A stretch of DNA of 44,934 nt from Longimicrobium sp. (GTDB taxonomy: Bacteria; Gemmatimonadota; Gemmatimonadetes; Longimicrobiales; Longimicrobiaceae): NCBI GenBank assembly GCA_036389795.1, contig DASVWD010000069.1, forward strand, positions 1 to 44,934, in the 5' to 3' direction. The notes beneath the pieces were generated by a model. It was not told the origin of the DNA and ran no database searches. It saw only the letters and a list, made by a program, of their open reading frames with translations. The position numbers and the translations under genes were made by a program. Of this stretch, positions 341-7,604 are shown one piece after another (the first letter of the stretch is position 1; each line of letters begins with the position of its first letter).

Positions 341-2065
341 CTACTTCCGGAACACCACCCGCCCGCCGACGACCGTCAGCACCGGCGCGGCCTTGAGGAT
401 CTCGACCTCGGGGATGGTCAGGAGGTCGCGGTCCCAGACGACGAGATCGGCGAGCATCCCGGGCTCCAGCGTGCCCTTCACCTTCTCCTGCCACTCGCCG
501 TACGCGGGCGTGGCGGTGTAGAGCCGGATCGCCTCGGCGCGGGTGAGGCGCTGCTCGGGGAGCCAGCCGCCGGGGGGAGTGCCGGGCTCCTCGCGGCTCT
601 GGCGGGTGACGGCGGAGTAGATCCCCTCCACCGGCGGCATCGGCTCCACGGGAAAGTCGGTGCCGAAGATGACGGTGGCGCCGGCGTCCAGGAGCGAGCG
701 CCAGACGTACGCCCCCTCCGCGGCGCGCTCGCGGCCGATGCGCGTCTCGGCCCAGCGCATGTCGCTGGTGGCGTGCGTGGGCTGCATCGACGCCAGCACC
801 CCCAGCCGCCGAAAGCGGGGGATGTCGGCGCGGTCGAGCACCTGCGCGTGCTCGATGCGGTGCCGGCGCTCGCGCGGGCCGTTGGCGCGGGCGGCGCGCT
901 CGAAGGCGTCGAGCACCTGGCGGTTGGCGGCGTCGCCGATGGCGTGGATGATCACCTGCAGCCCGGCGGCGTCGGCGGCGGTCACCAGCGAGTCGAGCTC
1001 GGCGTCGGTGTGCTGCGGCAGCCCGCGCGTGGAGGGGTCGTCGGAGAACGGCTCCAGCATGGCGGCGGTGCGCGAGCCGAGCGTGCCGTCGGCGTACGCC
1101 TTCAGCATCCCGATTCTCAGCCACTCGTCGCCGAAGCCGGCGGTGATCCCCAGCGCGCGCATCGCCTGGATCACGCGCATCTCCAGCGGGTGCCAGGCGT
1201 AGACGCGCACGGTGAGCGAGTCGCGCTGGCGCAGCTCCCGGTAGACGGCCACGTCGGTCCCCGAGGCGCTGGTCTGCACGCTGGTGACGCCGCTCCTGGC
1301 CGCCAGCTCCAGCGCGGCGCGGATGGCGCGGCGCACCTGCGCTCGCGTGGGGTCGGGGACGTGCCGGGCCACCAGCTCCTCGGCGGACTCCTTCAGGATC
1401 CCCGTCGGCTCGCCCGTGCGCGGGTCCTTCACCACCTCGCCGCCGGACGGGTTCGGCGTGGCGCCCGTCACCCCGGCGATGCGGAGCGCCTCGGAGTTCG
1501 CCCACGCGGTGTGGCCGTCCACGCGGGAGAGGAGCACCGGGTTGCGCGGCGCCGCGCGGTCCAGCACCTCCTTGGTCGGCCAGCCGCCGGGGCCGAGCTC
1601 GGAGGCGGGGAGGCGCGTCTGGTCCCACCCGCGCCCCAGGATCCACTCGCCGGGCTGAGCCTGCGCCGCGGCCGCCGCCACGCGCCGCTCGATCTCGGCC
1701 ACCGAGGTGGTGCCCAGCAGGTCCACCGCCAGCAGCGCCGCCCCGCCGGAGGCGAAGTGGATGTGCGCGTCGTTGAACCCCGGCGTCACCAGCTTCCCCG
1801 CGAGCCGCACGACCTGGGTGCGCGGCCCCACCAGCCGCCCGATCTGCGCGTCCGTGCCGACGGCCACCACGCGGCCCTCCCGCACCGCCAGCGCCCGCGT
1901 CACCGTCCCGGCGCGGTCGGCCACGAACACCTTGCCGCCCAACAGCACCATGTCCGCGAACGGGCCCTGCGCCGGCCCGGCGGCGTTCGAGCGAGGCGTC
2001 TGCTGGGCGGTGGCCGCGGAGGCGGCGAGCAGGAGCGCGCCCGCGGCGAGGAGGATTCGTCTCAT
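341..2065 (-). CDS. exported metal-dependent amidohydrolase (YtcJ-like)
   Basis: This 574-aa protein belongs to the amidohydrolase superfamily, YtcJ-like branch, whose members hydrolyse C-N bonds using one or two metal ions in a TIM barrel. The start at 2065 (MRRILLAAG) gives a clean signal peptide ending near ATAQQ at residues 20-22, so the enzyme is probably periplasmic. Visible signatures are an N-terminal beta-sandwich segment, the metal-binding DAHIHF (His101, His103), a DGHTAWANS segment, HAIGDAANR, RIEHAQ near residue 402 and GTDFPVEP near residue 468. The C-terminal end returns to the sandwich (VLTVVGGRVVF). The length is normal for the family. A longer start at 2104 would hide the signal peptide. 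The substrate cannot be told from sequence. It is transcribed alone, away from the next cassette. Confidence 0.9.
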   Translation of the reverse strand: MRRILLAAGALLLAASAATAQQTPRSNAAGPAQGPFADMVLLGGKVFVADRAGTVTRALAVREGRVVAVGTDAQIGRLVGPRTQVVRLAGKLVTPGFNDAHIHFASGGAALLAVDLLGTTSVAEIERRVAAAAAQAQPGEWILGRGWDQTRLPASELGPGGWPTKEVLDRAAPRNPVLLSRVDGHTAWANSEALRIAGVTGATPNPSGGEVVKDPRTGEPTGILKESAEELVARHVPDPTRAQVRRAIRAALELAARSGVTSVQTSASGTDVAVYRELRQRDSLTVRVYAWHPLEMRVIQAMRALGITAGFGDEWLRIGMLKAYADGTLGSRTAAMLEPFSDDPSTRGLPQHTDAELDSLVTAADAAGLQVIIHAIGDAANRQVLDAFERAARANGPRERRHRIEHAQVLDRADIPRFRRLGVLASMQPTHATSDMRWAETRIGRERAAEGAYVWRSLLDAGATVIFGTDFPVEPMPPVEGIYSAVTRQSREEPGTPPGGWLPEQRLTRAEAIRLYTATPAYGEWQEKVKGTLEPGMLADLVVWDRDLLTIPEVEILKAAPVLTVVGGRVVFRK

Positions 2066-2696
2066 CGGGATAGATCGGCTGAGGGATCGGTGTCGGCACA
2101 TCATACGTTCCAGCCGCCCCGCTCACCAGATTGCGCGGCGGGCCGTCCCGATCCGCGGGTTGCAGTCGGTGGGTGCGAACCACCGCCTACTCTACTTCCG
2201 CCGGTTGGATGGAACTCTCTTCGCTGACCCTGCGCGTCCTGCCCCTGTCCCACGGCGTCCTCTGCGCCATGCTGGTGGACGGGATTGGCGCCGGCGGCAT
2301 GCGTACTCCGGCGAGACAGGCGGCCGGTGAGTGGCGCCGCCCGCGGGCGCACCGGGGGTGGCCGGTGCCCTGTGCCATCCCTGTCCCGAAAGCGTGGTGC
2401 GCGCACGCCCCATTTTCCTCCCGCACTCCAGCGCGGCAATCCAGAAACGACGGTTCTCGTGTCCACCAATTGCATGAAACCCGTGTCGTTTAGACCGTAA
2501 ACAGATCTGGCGTGACATTTTAGGCCCGGTGCTTGCCTTCCGCCCCCGTGCCCACCTGGCGCCCGGCCGCACGGCTCCCCGCTCGCGCCCGCGGCTCCCC
2601 CCGCCCGCACGGCGCTGCCCCTTCCCTCCAACCGGAGAACCTCACTTCCCCGCGCGTCCCGGAGCTTTCATTCTCTCCCTTTCAGGAGCACCCACA
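2066..2696. other. 631-bp divergent intergenic region
   Basis: The region separates the divergent amidohydrolase and the cysteine-rich cassette. Small open frames exist on both strands, but none has a recognisable domain, and all look like GC-driven chance frames. An AT-richer stretch at about 2455-2525 is the likeliest promoter area for the plus-strand cassette; I could not fix -35 and -10 boxes. AGGAG at 2684-2688 is the ribosome binding site of the downstream gene. Confidence 0.4.
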
Positions 2697-5171
2697 ATGA
2701 GCAATGAAGAAGAAGACCCGCGCGCGCGCCGCACCGAGGCGCACGCCGCCGCGTCACAGCCGGAGCCGGGCTTCAAAGAGTTCATGGAGGCGTACGCGCC
2801 CGCCCTCCGCGCCGGCACCGAGGAGGCGGCCGGAGACGTGGCGCTCGCGGCGGGGCTGGAGGACGAGGTCGAGATGGCGGCGCAGGTGGCCGCGCGCTTC
2901 TTCAACGAGGAGACGGCCCTGCGCCTCTTCCCGGCCGAGGCCCGCGAGGTTCTGGGCGACGCGCAGCGGTGGCGCTGGTGTCTGCTGTACGTGCGCTGCT
3001 GCTGGATGTTCGGATGGCTCGTGTGCCGCGGCTGCCGCGACTTCCGGGCGCTCGCCTACTACCTGTACCGCTACCTGCTCTGCGTCCGCGAGGCGGTGGG
3101 AACGCCGCTGGGCGAGCGTCAGCTCACCGAGGCCGAGCGCCGCGACGCCGAGCAGCTCATCCACGCCTTCGGCGAGATCTACCAGGAGTGGCTGGCCGAA
3201 GAGCAGCTCAACGTGCGCCTGCTCACCAGGGCCGGCGACCCGGAATCCCCCAGGGCGGACTGGTGGACGGTGGGCGGGAAGTTCGACTGCTGCCGCGACG
3301 ACCGCTTCGCCGCGCAGGTGTTCGAGCGCCTGCTGAGCGCCGCCAACGCCCCGCTGATCCTGGGGAGGGAAGGCTTCACCGCCCACCAGCGCGACCCGTT
3401 CTTCTGGCTCTGCCGCTGCTGGTGCCTGGCCGCGGTGCGCTTCGGCTGCTGCCTGGCGTGCGCGCGCACGCGGAGCCAGATCCTGGCCTGCTACCGCGAG
3501 TACCAGGCGGCGCTGCGCGACTGTTTCCGCCCGCTCCACTGCGAGCTCACGGGACCGCACGGGTGCGTGGCCGACGAGCTGGAGCCGAACGTGGGTGGCT
3601 TCGCGGTGCCCGTCGTCGGCACCGCGGCCGGCGCCTTCTTCGCGGGCTACACCATCGAGTGGCGCTTCGTGGAAGGCGATGCCTGCGACCAGGGCGGCGG
3701 CTGGCACAGCGACCACGTCGTGTACCCCGGGGGCGGCGGCAGCGGCACCGTCCCGGTGGTGGGCGGCGTGCTCGGCTGGATCGACACCACCACCTTCACG
3801 GCGCGCTCGTACGAGGTGCGCGTCTGCCTGCGCTCCGCGCTCGGCGCCGCGCCGCCCTGCTGCTGCACGACCTTCAACCTGTTCCGGCACCTGGTGTGGA
3901 TCGACCACGTGGGCGGGGCGCCGGTGCGGACGCCGCCCGGGCCGTTCGTCTCCAGCGCGCCGATCGTGAGCGGCAACCCGGGTGGGCACGTGGTCCCCGT
4001 CGGCTGCGATTTCACGGTGCACGGCAGCGCCTGGGTGGGCGAGTGCAACGACCGGAAGATCGAGTGCTTCGACCTGCGCTACGGCGTCGGCTGCCTGCCG
4101 GGGCCGCTGGACCCGGGGTTCACCCCGGCGGCGTTCACCGGCTCGCTCCTCCCCACGCCGGTGTGCTACACCCCACCCGACGAGGCCGGGAAGCGCGCGC
4201 CGTGGAACCAGGTGATCTCGGGGGTGCTGACCACGCAGCTGGTGCAGACGCAGATCCAGCTCCTGCCGCTTCCCGCGCCGCCGATCACGGTGTGGAAGCT
4301 CCACGACTTCTGCTTCCACAGCGCCTCGCAGCTGCCGTCGTGCCCCGACCGCCACCACCCGTGCCGCAGCGGCCTCTACACCCTGCTGCTGGACGTGCGG
4401 GACACGCAGGGACACCACTACTACGACACGCAGTGCGTCTGGATCGACAACCAGCCGATCCACGCGCAGCTGGCGGGCTTCGCGGGCGTGCCGAACTGCA
4501 GCAGGCTGCTGCTGAAGAAGCTGTCGGGCGGGGCCGGCTGCGGCACGCCGTGGCTGGGCCAGCTGATGGGCGTGGCGTTCGACGAGCTGATCGACCCGTT
4601 CGATCCCACGTACCCGAGCGACAACTTCCACTACTACTCGATCTGGATCACCCGCGGCTGCCCGGGGGGCCCCACCTGGCAGATCCCCATCACCCCCGAC
4701 CTGGTGAACTTCCACGCGGACGCGCTCACCGGCGCCGTGGACCAGCACCGGGGGACCTCGCGGGTCGGCGATCCCGGCAAGCGCTGCTGGCAGACGGCGG
4801 GGTGCCCGCCGGGGCCGCCGAACTGGCCGGTGGTGCCGATGCACTTCTACGGGCCGCTGACCGCCTTCGACCTGCGGGCGTTCGACGCGGTCTGCGCCGC
4901 GAGCCTGGCGCCGCCCTTCGCGCCGCCCCCGGGGTTCGCCCTGAAGCGCGGCGAGTGCTGCCCGTACACCATCCAGCTCTACGTGCGGGACCGGACGCGC
5001 AGCGACTGCACCCCGGGGTGCCACGAGAAATGGTCGGCGCCGTGCGCGGTGTACGTCTGCAACGACCTGGGTCCGAAGGGGCTGGGGGTGGAAGCGCCCC
5101 TGGACGCGGAGGCGGCGCAGCCGGGGCCGGGCTCGGCGCTCGGTGGAAAGCTGGACACGCTCGAGGGCTGA
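2697..5171 (+). CDS. unrecognised cysteine-rich 824-aa protein
   Basis: I do not recognise this protein. The start is set by AGGAG 8 nt upstream of ATG 2697. It has 44 cysteines (about 5%) and no signal peptide. The N-terminal third (residues 1 to about 280) looks helical. It carries paired cysteines among aromatics, such as RCCWMFGWLVCRGC near residue 100 and WLCRCWCLAAVRFGCCLAC near residue 240. From about residue 300 the sequence turns Gly/Pro-rich and beta-like, with motifs such as CCCTTFN, YDTQCVWIDNQP and GECCPYTIQLYVRD, suggesting repeated beta-sandwich modules. The C-terminus is an acidic Ala/Gly/Pro tail. It heads a three-gene cassette with the DUF1360 gene (GTG 1 nt after this stop) and the MPCCGQ small protein. 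A structural, coat-like or phage-derived particle role is possible but not shown. Confidence 0.85.
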   Translation: MSNEEEDPRARRTEAHAAASQPEPGFKEFMEAYAPALRAGTEEAAGDVALAAGLEDEVEMAAQVAARFFNEETALRLFPAEAREVLGDAQRWRWCLLYVRCCWMFGWLVCRGCRDFRALAYYLYRYLLCVREAVGTPLGERQLTEAERRDAEQLIHAFGEIYQEWLAEEQLNVRLLTRAGDPESPRADWWTVGGKFDCCRDDRFAAQVFERLLSAANAPLILGREGFTAHQRDPFFWLCRCWCLAAVRFGCCLACARTRSQILACYREYQAALRDCFRPLHCELTGPHGCVADELEPNVGGFAVPVVGTAAGAFFAGYTIEWRFVEGDACDQGGGWHSDHVVYPGGGGSGTVPVVGGVLGWIDTTTFTARSYEVRVCLRSALGAAPPCCCTTFNLFRHLVWIDHVGGAPVRTPPGPFVSSAPIVSGNPGGHVVPVGCDFTVHGSAWVGECNDRKIECFDLRYGVGCLPGPLDPGFTPAAFTGSLLPTPVCYTPPDEAGKRAPWNQVISGVLTTQLVQTQIQLLPLPAPPITVWKLHDFCFHSASQLPSCPDRHHPCRSGLYTLLLDVRDTQGHHYYDTQCVWIDNQPIHAQLAGFAGVPNCSRLLLKKLSGGAGCGTPWLGQLMGVAFDELIDPFDPTYPSDNFHYYSIWITRGCPGGPTWQIPITPDLVNFHADALTGAVDQHRGTSRVGDPGKRCWQTAGCPPGPPNWPVVPMHFYGPLTAFDLRAFDAVCAASLAPPFAPPPGFALKRGECCPYTIQLYVRDRTRSDCTPGCHEKWSAPCAVYVCNDLGPKGLGVEAPLDAEAAQPGPGSALGGKLDTLEG

Positions 5172-5172
5172 C

Positions 5173-5475
5173 GTGGAGGCGTGGCTGAGGTTCGTGCTGG
5201 CCGTCCTCGCCGTCTGGCGGGTCACGCACCTGCTGGCGGCGGAGGACGGCCCGGGCGAGGTGGTCGCCCGGCTCCGGGCGCGCCTCGGGGCTGGCCTCCT
5301 CGGCCGCCTGATGGACTGCTTCTACTGCCTGAGCGTCTGGGTGGCGGCGCCGTTCGCCGGGTTCGTGGCGCAGCGGCCGGTGGACCTGGTGGTCGTCTGG
5401 CTTGCGCTCTCCGGCGGCGCCTCGCTGCTGGAGCGAGCCACCGCGCCGCGGGTCGGCATCACGCCGCTCGACTGA
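5173..5475 (+). CDS. DUF1360 small membrane protein
   Basis: This 100-aa protein matches DUF1360, a family of unknown function that includes Bacillus YjcA. Hallmarks are WRVTHLLAAEDGPGE in the first helix region, RLMDCFYCLSVWVA with a CxxC pair at about residues 52-55, and a hydrophobic C-terminal helix (VDLVVVWLALSGGASLLE). It is probably an inner-membrane protein with two or three helices. The GTG at 5173 follows the upstream stop by 1 nt and has GAGGG at 5163-5167. An ATG at 5143 would overlap the upstream gene by 29 nt and is a less likely alternative. Tight spacing implies co-translation with the cysteine-rich protein. Confidence 0.85.
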   Translation: MEAWLRFVLAVLAVWRVTHLLAAEDGPGEVVARLRARLGAGLLGRLMDCFYCLSVWVAAPFAGFVAQRPVDLVVVWLALSGGASLLERATAPRVGITPLD

Positions 5476-5498
5476 AACGAATCACCGGGAGGTTCCGA

Positions 5499-5804
5499 AT
5501 GCCGTGCTGTGGACAGAGTCGTGCCGCGTTGGCGGCAGAGGCCGCGCGTCCCGCCGCCTCGCTGTGGGTTCCCCCCGCCGCCGTCCCGACCGCTCCCCCG
5601 CCCGTGGAGGCGGCCGGGGAGGCGCCCGCTCCGCCGCCGCCCGCATCGGTCAGGGTCCGGTTCAACCACGACCGCCGGGTGCGGGTGAACGGTCCCGTCA
5701 GCGGGCGCGAGTATCTGTTCTCCGGCGCCGATCCCGTGCAGTCGGTCGACGCGCGCGATGCGGACGGACTCGTGGACACCGGCCTGTTCAGGCGGGTTTA
5801 CTGA
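5499..5804 (+). CDS. small protein with N-terminal MPCCGQ
   Basis: This 101-aa protein follows DUF1360 by 23 nt and has a strong ribosome binding site, GGGAGG, at 5487-5492. It begins MPCCGQSR, continues through an Ala/Pro-rich linker (residues about 12-50), and ends in a compact beta-like domain of about 50 residues with VNGPVSGREYLFSG and VDARDADGLVDTGLFRRVY. I cannot assign a family. The C-terminal pattern reminds me of small proteins found in some phage structural gene sets, but that is recollection, not a match. The vicinal cysteines at positions 3-4 echo the cysteine theme of the two genes upstream. Confidence 0.75.
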   Translation: MPCCGQSRAALAAEAARPAASLWVPPAAVPTAPPPVEAAGEAPAPPPPASVRVRFNHDRRVRVNGPVSGREYLFSGADPVQSVDARDADGLVDTGLFRRVY

Positions 5805-5885
5805 CCGGGCCGGGCGCCGCCCGGCAGGCGCTCGTCGGCCGCCCGTCCGTCCTCCGCGCGGCCCGATGAAACAGGCGACTTTCCG

Positions 5886-6158
5886 TCAGGTGGACGGCCG
5901 GCGGTACTGCGGGTCGTTGTACATCTTGAACTGGCGGTAGACCTTCGGCACCACGCGGCCGGCGGCGATGTCGGAGAGGAGCGCGGTGAGCTCCTCGGCC
6001 AGGTCGTCGCGCTGGAGGCGCAGCACCTCCAGGCGCCGCTCGCACGCGGCGCGGAACTCGGGGGCGGCGTCGCTTCGCTCGGCCTGCTCGCGCATGTGCC
6101 AGATCTTCAGCTCCATGATGGAGATCTTGTCGGCGAGCGAGCCCACGGTCTCAGCCAC
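5886..6158 (-). CDS. DUF4254, C-terminal half (split gene)
   Basis: This 90-aa product corresponds to the second half of DUF4254 proteins, normally about 200 aa and often encoded beside GT9 heptosyltransferases. Signatures are [19 protein letters not shown] at residues 7-25, the [15 protein letters not shown] helix, and the terminal [12 protein letters not shown]. The GTG start at 6158 lies inside the end of the upstream half (stop 6151-6153), giving an 8-nt overlap and suggesting translational coupling. Normally both halves form one chain, so this is a genuine fission, a recoding site or a single-base error. The function of DUF4254 is unknown; LPS-core work is inferred from its neighbours. 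Confidence 0.8.
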
Positions 6159-6366
6159 CGGCGCCTCCGCGCTCGGCGCGCACGGCCTCCAGCACGGCCT
6201 CGTCGATGCGCTCGATCAGGTCGTTGCGGCGCTGGTTCAGGCGGTCGACGGCGCGCTTGGCGGCCGCCACCTGGTGGTCGTCGTCGGAGCGCGCCCTGTC
6301 TTCTTCGTGCCACAGCTCGACGTTGGTGGCCGCCAGCCGCGAGATCAGGGCGCCGATCGTTTCCAT
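6151..6366 (-). CDS. DUF4254, N-terminal half (split gene)
   Basis: This product (71 aa from ATG 6366) carries the N-terminal hallmark of DUF4254: [12 protein letters not shown] followed by [19 protein letters not shown]. It ends with RAERGGAGG just where intact relatives continue into the second half. The two halves also look like diverged duplicates of one helical hairpin (METIGALI versus MAETVGSL; ELWHEED versus KIWHMRE). The start is uncertain: GTG 6375 has AAAGGA about 11 nt upstream, and frames open to 6438. The gene is divergent from the GT9 pair, with about 180 bp between. Confidence 0.75.
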
Positions 6367-6545
6367 CGTCTCCACGAAGGCCGAAGTCCTTTCCGCTATG
6401 GGGGATGTGAGGCCCGCCATTCTAGCCGCGCGGCGCACCCGGCGCCATCCCGGCGGGGTTGCCGCGCCCGCACCGCGGCCTATCTTCCGCCCCCGTCCTG
6501 CCCGCCGCCCGGGCCCTCCCCCGTACGTCCAGCGCCGAGACGCAC

Positions 6546-7604
6546 TTGCCCGACGCGCCGCCGCGGCTCGGCCGCGTGTGCATCGTGATGATGAGCGCCC
6601 TGGGAGACGCCGTGCACGTCCTCCCCGTGGTCAACGCGCTCAGGCGCCACGACCCGGCGGCGCGCCTCACCTGGGTGCTGCAGCCCGGGCCGGCTTCGCT
6701 GGTGCGCGGGCACCCGGCGGTGGACGAGATCGTCGTCTTCGAGCGCGCGAAGGGGTGGCGCGGCTTCGCGGAAGTCGGGCGGGCGCTCCGGGCGCGGCGC
6801 TTCGACCTGCTGGTCGACCTGCAGGTCTACTTCAAGGCCAGCGTCGTCACCGCGCTGGCCCGCGCGCCGGTGAAGCTGGGGTTCGACCGGGCGCGGGCGC
6901 GCGACTGGAACTGGCTGGTCACCAACCGGAAGATCCCGCCGCACGCGCCGCAGCACGTGCAGGAGCAGTACTTCGAGTTCCTCCATGCGCTCGGCGTCGA
7001 CCCCGAGCCGGTGGAGTGGAACCTGGGCCCGTGGCCGCACGAGCGCGCCCGCCAGCGCGAGCTGTTCGCCACGATCCCGCGCCCGGCGGCGCTGCTGGTG
7101 ATCGGGAGCAGCCACCCGGAGAAGGAGTGGCTCCCCGAGCGGTGGGCGGCGCTGGCGGACGCGCTCGCGGAGAGATACGGCCTCACCTCCGTGCTGGCCG
7201 GCGGGCGCTCGCCGCGCGAGCTGGAGACGGAGCGCGAGATCGTCCGCCTGGCGCGGCATCCGGTCGTCTCGACCCTCGGCGCGCCGCTCAGGGACCTGGT
7301 GGCGCTGATCGACGGGTCGGCGCTGGTCGTCTCGCTCGACACGGGGCCGATGCACATGGCGGTGGCGATGGACGTGCCCACCGTGGCGCTGATGGGCTTC
7401 AACAACCCGAAGCGCGTGGGGCCCTGGCGCCGCTTCCACGACCTGCTGGTGGACGCGTACGGCGACCCGGGCGAGGACTACCCGGTCTCGATGCAGAAGC
7501 GCCCCGGCCGCATGCGCCGCATCACCGTGGACGACGTGCTGGAGCGCGTGGAGCGCTGGCGCGAGCGCTACGCGGACCGCCGCCCGGGTCCGGGGGCGTC
7601 GTGA
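6546..7604 (+). CDS. GT9 family glycosyltransferase (heptosyltransferase-like)
   Basis: This is a GT9 (GT-B fold) enzyme of the ADP-heptose:LPS heptosyltransferase type, expected to add heptose to the LPS inner core at the cytoplasmic face. The first Rossmann strand is [20 protein letters not shown], the central motif is [11 protein letters not shown], and the donor site is [12 protein letters not shown] followed by [17 protein letters not shown]. The end, [17 protein letters not shown], resembles the next gene, so the pair is a tandem duplication. No ATG precedes the first strand. TTG 6546 is chosen (352 aa), with TTG 6459 as an alternative. Its stop overlaps the next GTG by 4 nt (GTGA). Confidence 0.85.

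Follow-up and report, generated by a model that had tools for sequence, protein, structure and literature searches.

The large cysteine-rich protein, the DUF1360 membrane protein and the small CCG protein encoded in the window (the whole 44,934-nt stretch of Longimicrobium sp. DNA analysed here; Table 1) are supported, by comparison of the chromosomal loci found in soil Gemmatimonadota, as one conserved and rare unit. The same comparison, extended to viral loci, shows that the pair formed by DUF1360 and the CCG protein is common to bacteria and the head clusters of tailed phages, with no direction of transfer implied, and bacteria seem to put this head-assembly module, shared with phages, to a use of their own. 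Our tentative reading, which we hold at somewhat short of an even chance, is that the unit is an accessory one, combining the pair shared with phage heads with an exchangeable cysteine-rich protein, and that the pair would tether the large protein at the membrane.

Table 1 Features of the trio and its surroundings in the window
Feature	Position	Strand	Description
Amidohydrolase gene	341-2104	-	flanks slot
Variable slot	2105..5885	.	holds trio in window; other cargo or nothing in relatives
Large Cys-rich protein gene	2697..5171	+	824 aa, 44 Cys
DUF1360 small membrane protein gene	5173..5475	+	100 aa; PF07098 E=3e-9
Small protein gene	5499..5804	+	101 aa; MPCCGQSR motif, Ala/Pro-rich linker, C-terminal domain
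DUF4254 gene pair with GT9	5886-7604		flanks slot

The trio as one unit in Gemmatimonadota

An earlier model-generated reading of the DNA, made from the sequence alone, had described the large gene and its cysteine count, the lack of a signal peptide, the DUF1360 gene starting 1 nt later and the protein beginning MPCCGQ with its own Shine-Dalgarno sequence, and all of this was found as described. Its proposal that the three genes form one system is also borne out by the neighbourhood survey, which covered Gemmatimonadota: the order large protein, DUF1360 and M-x-CCG-xx-R protein, all on one strand, is kept at all nine chromosomal loci found (L005, L007, L016, L017, L034, L035, L036, L095 and the window), and the neighbourhoods of these loci differ. 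Neither of the two findings that would have spoken against the proposal was made: the genes are regularly found side by side, and no clear known family could be given to the large protein. Many of the gene roles at the related loci were read from sequence.

The profile of this DUF1360 subtype matches 8 of the 394 genomes of the class, and the trio order is kept in all eight chromosomal copies. Strong matches to the small-protein profile (E below 1e-26) fall in exactly the same eight genomes, an agreement that is partly circular since the profile was built from those same sequences. Two checks are free of this circularity. L005 (JAFAYN010000502, a Gemmatimonadota MAG) and L007 (from another family of the same order) were retrieved with the large protein alone, and were then found to carry DUF1360 and an MGCCGQ protein directly downstream of the large gene, in different surroundings. 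The ninth trio, L095 (genome G468), was retrieved with the profile of another large family alone, and it carries DUF1360 together with an MSCCGSNR protein.

The partner in the large-protein position is not the same everywhere. The large proteins fall into the classes window/L005/L007, L034/L035/L036, L017/L095 and L016, and those outside the window class represent two or three further families that occupy this position in the trio. L017 and L095 are related to the L034 class (E ~1e-13 in the nine-sequence set and 7e-11 in the genome search), and the L034-L036 proteins have a weak CarboxypepD_reg match (PF13620) below the cut-off. No significant relation was found between the window class and the L034 class, which have in common only the C-terminal motifs CC-Y-L-(D/K)(K/R)T and V-x-I-x-GTA...Y-x-IEW. 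The large proteins of different loci are not all provably homologous. By inspection a signal peptide was seen in none of them, and their cysteine content is raised in all nine (1.8-5.3%), the other large families holding 13-21 cysteines each.

Two side observations concern individual loci. At L017 and L095, which belong to one genus, the trio lies within ~2 kb of genes read from sequence as SUF Fe-S assembly-like, and a gene for a 399-aa cysteine-containing protein lies 1.6 kb before the L035 trio (L035:2386-3585, minus strand); this protein gave no known family, only a weak chance match.

The genomic slot

In the window's genus the amidohydrolase and GT9 genes on either side of the trio remain neighbours, and what lies between them changes. 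In G017 the slot holds a toxin-antitoxin-like pair (loci L074 and L075 compared; the pair is at L075 reverse complement 644-1293), in G009 it holds another membrane-protein-like gene, and in G013, G014 and G016 it is empty, with the flanking genes 115-270 bp apart. This patchy distribution among the relatives compared shows that the trio behaves as accessory cargo, and the window seems to keep a trace of the G009 gene, to judge by a 75-nt match. Flanking direct repeats were considered as target-site duplications, but none was convincing, and no tRNA or RNA family was found at the trio site. On the far side of the slot, two small DUF4254 proteins are encoded in tandem in the window (5886-6438, minus strand); they match positions 73-144 and 3-61 of one DUF4254 model and are complementary, as if one ancestral protein had been split.

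The large cysteine-rich protein

Cysteine makes up 5.3% of the window large protein, whereas the other long genes of the window have 0.6% at the median and never more than 1.4%. The large protein has six CC steps, including one CCC, somewhat above the average of 2.3 given by shuffles that preserve composition, and the pairing is thus mostly a consequence of the high cysteine content. The conservation of these residues is more telling. The two homologues, L005 and L007, are 52% and 40% identical to the window protein, and a search of 50 genomes from the L007 family gave no further one. In L005, 91% of the window cysteines are retained, and across the three homologues 61% of the cysteines are invariant versus 27% of all residues and only 9% of the histidines. 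Cysteine is the most conserved residue type of the protein, and these alignments make selection on the cysteines clear.

No Pfam match above the cut-off was found for the large protein and none in PHROGs, NCBIfam or PADLOC, nor did it match any PDB sequence, plasmid, phage or viral contig searched. None of its 19-residue windows reaches transmembrane hydropathy, and its N-terminus (MSNEEEDPRAR...) is, on inspection, unlike a signal peptide. The AlphaFold model built from two sequences is poor (pLDDT 40, pTM 0.35) and unusable for a fold search; at this low confidence it predicts a helical N-terminal part (~1-290) with Cys/Trp-rich helices at residues ~94-133 and 236-285, followed by a beta-rich remainder.

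The DUF1360 and CCG proteins

The DUF1360 protein scores 37.2 bits against PF07098, above the curated cut-off of 21, and its GTG start codon lies 1 nt past the TGA of the large gene, with identical start spacing in L005. Among the aligned residues of 21 bacterial and phage DUF1360 proteins, only R16, R35, C49, C52 and W56 are invariant. The two cysteines form a CxxC motif (DCFYC in the window) where the second hydrophobic segment begins, and the invariant tryptophan follows four residues past it. To our knowledge, no function has been assigned to DUF1360, and in the open-access literature searched a single paper names the family; a search on YngL, which we take to be the DUF1360 protein of B. 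subtilis, gave nothing useful.

The small gene is preceded by GGGAGG 5′ of its ATG. No family above the cut-off was found for its product in Pfam, PHROG or NCBIfam. Across eight small proteins the motif CCGxxR does not vary at CC, G or R, and neither do one Gly, Tyr, Phe, Val and Asp each in the C-terminal domain of ~50 aa. Together with the invariant CxxC and the conserved cysteines of the large protein, this confirms the cysteine theme that the sequence-only reading had seen in the three genes.

The AlphaFold model of the C-terminal domain (residues 50-100) is fair, with pLDDT ~84-88. Its tightest match in the PDB is YqbF (2hjq; rmsd 1.6 Å over 45 residues, Z 5.4, where a Z below 8 may reflect a common arrangement only). 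The lambda gpFI C-domain (2lsm) follows at Z 4.7, also below 8, and GINS C-domains give Z 4.4-5.5, similar to YqbF; none of the structure matches has an E-value below 0.001. YqbF gives its name to the PriA/YqbF superfamily, which is present in bacterial viruses (PMC5671483), and gpFI affects lambda DNA packaging (PMC11868608). The domain also occurs alone, lacking the CCG start and DUF1360, at L096:7826-8182 and L097:609-989 (both on the minus strand), close to SUF Fe-S assembly-like genes; the two genomes share a genus, which is not that of L017 and L095.

The pair in tailed phages

A tblastn search matched DUF1360 in 154 actinobacteriophage records. In most of the annotated cases inspected (including among L048-L053, L023 and L024) the gene is immediately 5′ of the portal gene and is annotated as a hypothetical or membrane protein; in ReqiPine5 one small gene intervenes between DUF1360 and the portal, and in GMA2 DUF1360 precedes a structural gene. 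A prophage copy of the same DUF1360 subtype as in the trios (L018/L038/L039) lies just before genes read as head-tail, with a tape-measure-like gene present. In the viral contigs L040 and L041 a glycosyltransferase gene is followed by DUF1360 and then by genes read as head-tail, and in L042-L047 a CGCG/CGCS protein adjoins DUF1360, with a portal-like gene next where the contig continues.

The small protein gave nothing by direct tblastn against phages, and its matches came from a profile search of the phage loci. Over 1141 phage-locus ORFs the top-ranked ones were those adjoining DUF1360, with E-values of 5e-5 for L018, 5e-4 and 0.006 for L041, and 0.03 for L040. The glycosyltransferase genes directly before DUF1360 (L018:4504-7728, L040:66-2615 and L041:7012-8010) end in MACGSC, MACRGC or MGCCGG plus a YqbF-like domain, the L041 gene having MGCCGG and the small-protein C-terminal domain together. 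No Cys-cluster protein was seen adjoining DUF1360 in phages L023, L024, L048, L050, L051 and L052, and so a pairing of CxxC with CCG is not universal. None of the viral scans run with alignments of DUF1360, the CCG protein and the L034 class yielded a confirmed match; the prophage DUF1360 as query did match viral contigs.

The suspected phage origin of the small protein's C-terminal domain thus stands in part: the domain is shared with phages, but the direction of transfer does not follow. The suggestion of a particle or coat found no support: no match to capsid, tail or coat families came from any of the three proteins. Capsid, portal, terminase, sheath and tube families, which would mark a phage-derived particle such as a gene transfer agent, tailocin, encapsulin or contractile injection system, were absent from the trio and the scanned window neighbours, and none was seen by inspection at the other loci.

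A proposed membrane-tethered assembly

In the mechanism that we propose, DUF1360 would be an inner-membrane anchor, and a metal or a disulfide may link its CxxC to the CCG of the small protein. Docking of the large cysteine-rich protein would fall to the YqbF-like domain of the small one, so that the large protein would be retained, or put together, at the membrane's inner face. In phages, where its genes lie beside the portal or head-tail connector, the pair would likewise fasten a component of the head to the membrane. Positively charged loops of membrane proteins face the cytoplasm (the positive-inside rule). The loop preceding the CxxC is positively charged, which suggests a cytoplasmic orientation for this motif and speaks for a role in docking or with a metal rather than for disulfide formation in the periplasm. 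A broader version, which we regard as less likely than not, is that the phage head-module pair is a reusable membrane docking platform for several families of cysteine-rich scaffold, giving a new kind of membrane-bound intracellular structure, linked by thiols or metal, and also explaining the portal-adjacent protein of the actinobacteriophages.

The same motifs can be read as thiol chemistry, with DUF1360 as a minimal membrane thiol-disulfide exchanger, the CCG protein as its adaptor and the large protein as a cross-linked client. The CxxC is indeed the core invariant of DUF1360, the CCG never varies among the small proteins, and cysteine is both conserved in the large protein and raised in every locus. 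However, the likeness to DsbB/VKOR (a CxxC at a helix start) is a general resemblance only, the other large families hold fewer cysteines, and proteins lacking signal peptides would keep theirs in the reducing cytoplasm unless another export route exists, so that we consider this explanation unlikely. Metal handling, with the large protein as a metal-binding scaffold placed at the membrane by the other two, would account for the conserved cysteine clusters, the CxxC and CCG motifs and the SUF-like genes near L017 and L095. It is improbable in our view, since the histidines of the large protein are little conserved, no metal-transport or metal-regulator gene was recognised adjoining the window trio, and the SUF neighbourhood is absent from the other loci.

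The distribution of the trio raises a different kind of explanation, namely anti-phage defence or superinfection exclusion, in which a host-borne phage head module would sabotage the assembly of heads in related phages or the entry of their DNA. The patchy accessory distribution, the toxin-antitoxin-like pair carried by the slot in a relative and the occurrence of the pair in phage head clusters are all consistent with it. We nevertheless think it quite unlikely: no PADLOC match was found (PADLOC models describe known systems, which a new one could not match), no other defence genes were recognised beside the trio, and a large multi-domain partner is unlike simple decoys. That the trio is an unselected prophage relic, as the presence of the pair in phages might suggest, is disfavoured as very improbable, because the trio is intact in nine genomes of several families with strongly conserved residues, and no phage structural genes were recognised beside the window trio.

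Comparison with known systems

If the tethering reading is right and the pair anchors head assembly, it would explain how these phages position the assembly of their portal or prohead, and would be a further example of a head-assembly part common to bacteria and phages in the absence of any particle. The bacterial trio and the portal-adjacent phage position in any case give two independent handles on DUF1360. The novelty lies in the unit, whose parts come from families that are known but uncharacterised, and the function given to it is a proposal.

Bacterial Ig-like and carboxypeptidase-regulatory-like proteins (PF13620, below the cut-off in L034-L036) resemble the large proteins in having beta-rich domains and no catalytic family, although the window large protein matches none of them and has a predicted helical, Cys/Trp-rich N-terminal part. 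B. subtilis YqbF, from a phage-like element, and the lambda gpFI C-terminal domain have a predicted fold in common with the C-terminal 50 residues of the small protein, a weak match; the likeness is one of fold, with no sequence-level match, and unlike both, the small protein adds the N-terminal CCGxxR and the linker. Bacillus-type DUF1360 proteins belong to the same Pfam family, B. subtilis being the one control genome that matches, but membership of a trio was rejected for the three copies examined (L020-L022, which have the highest Gemmatimonadota PF07098 scores). The DUF1360 of actinobacteriophages (PF07098/PHROG 781) falls in the same profile family as that of the window, with the invariant CxxC, a similar size and, in part of them, a neighbouring small Cys-cluster protein; it lies between terminase and portal, with no large cysteine-rich partner, whereas the window carries a free-standing chromosomal trio.
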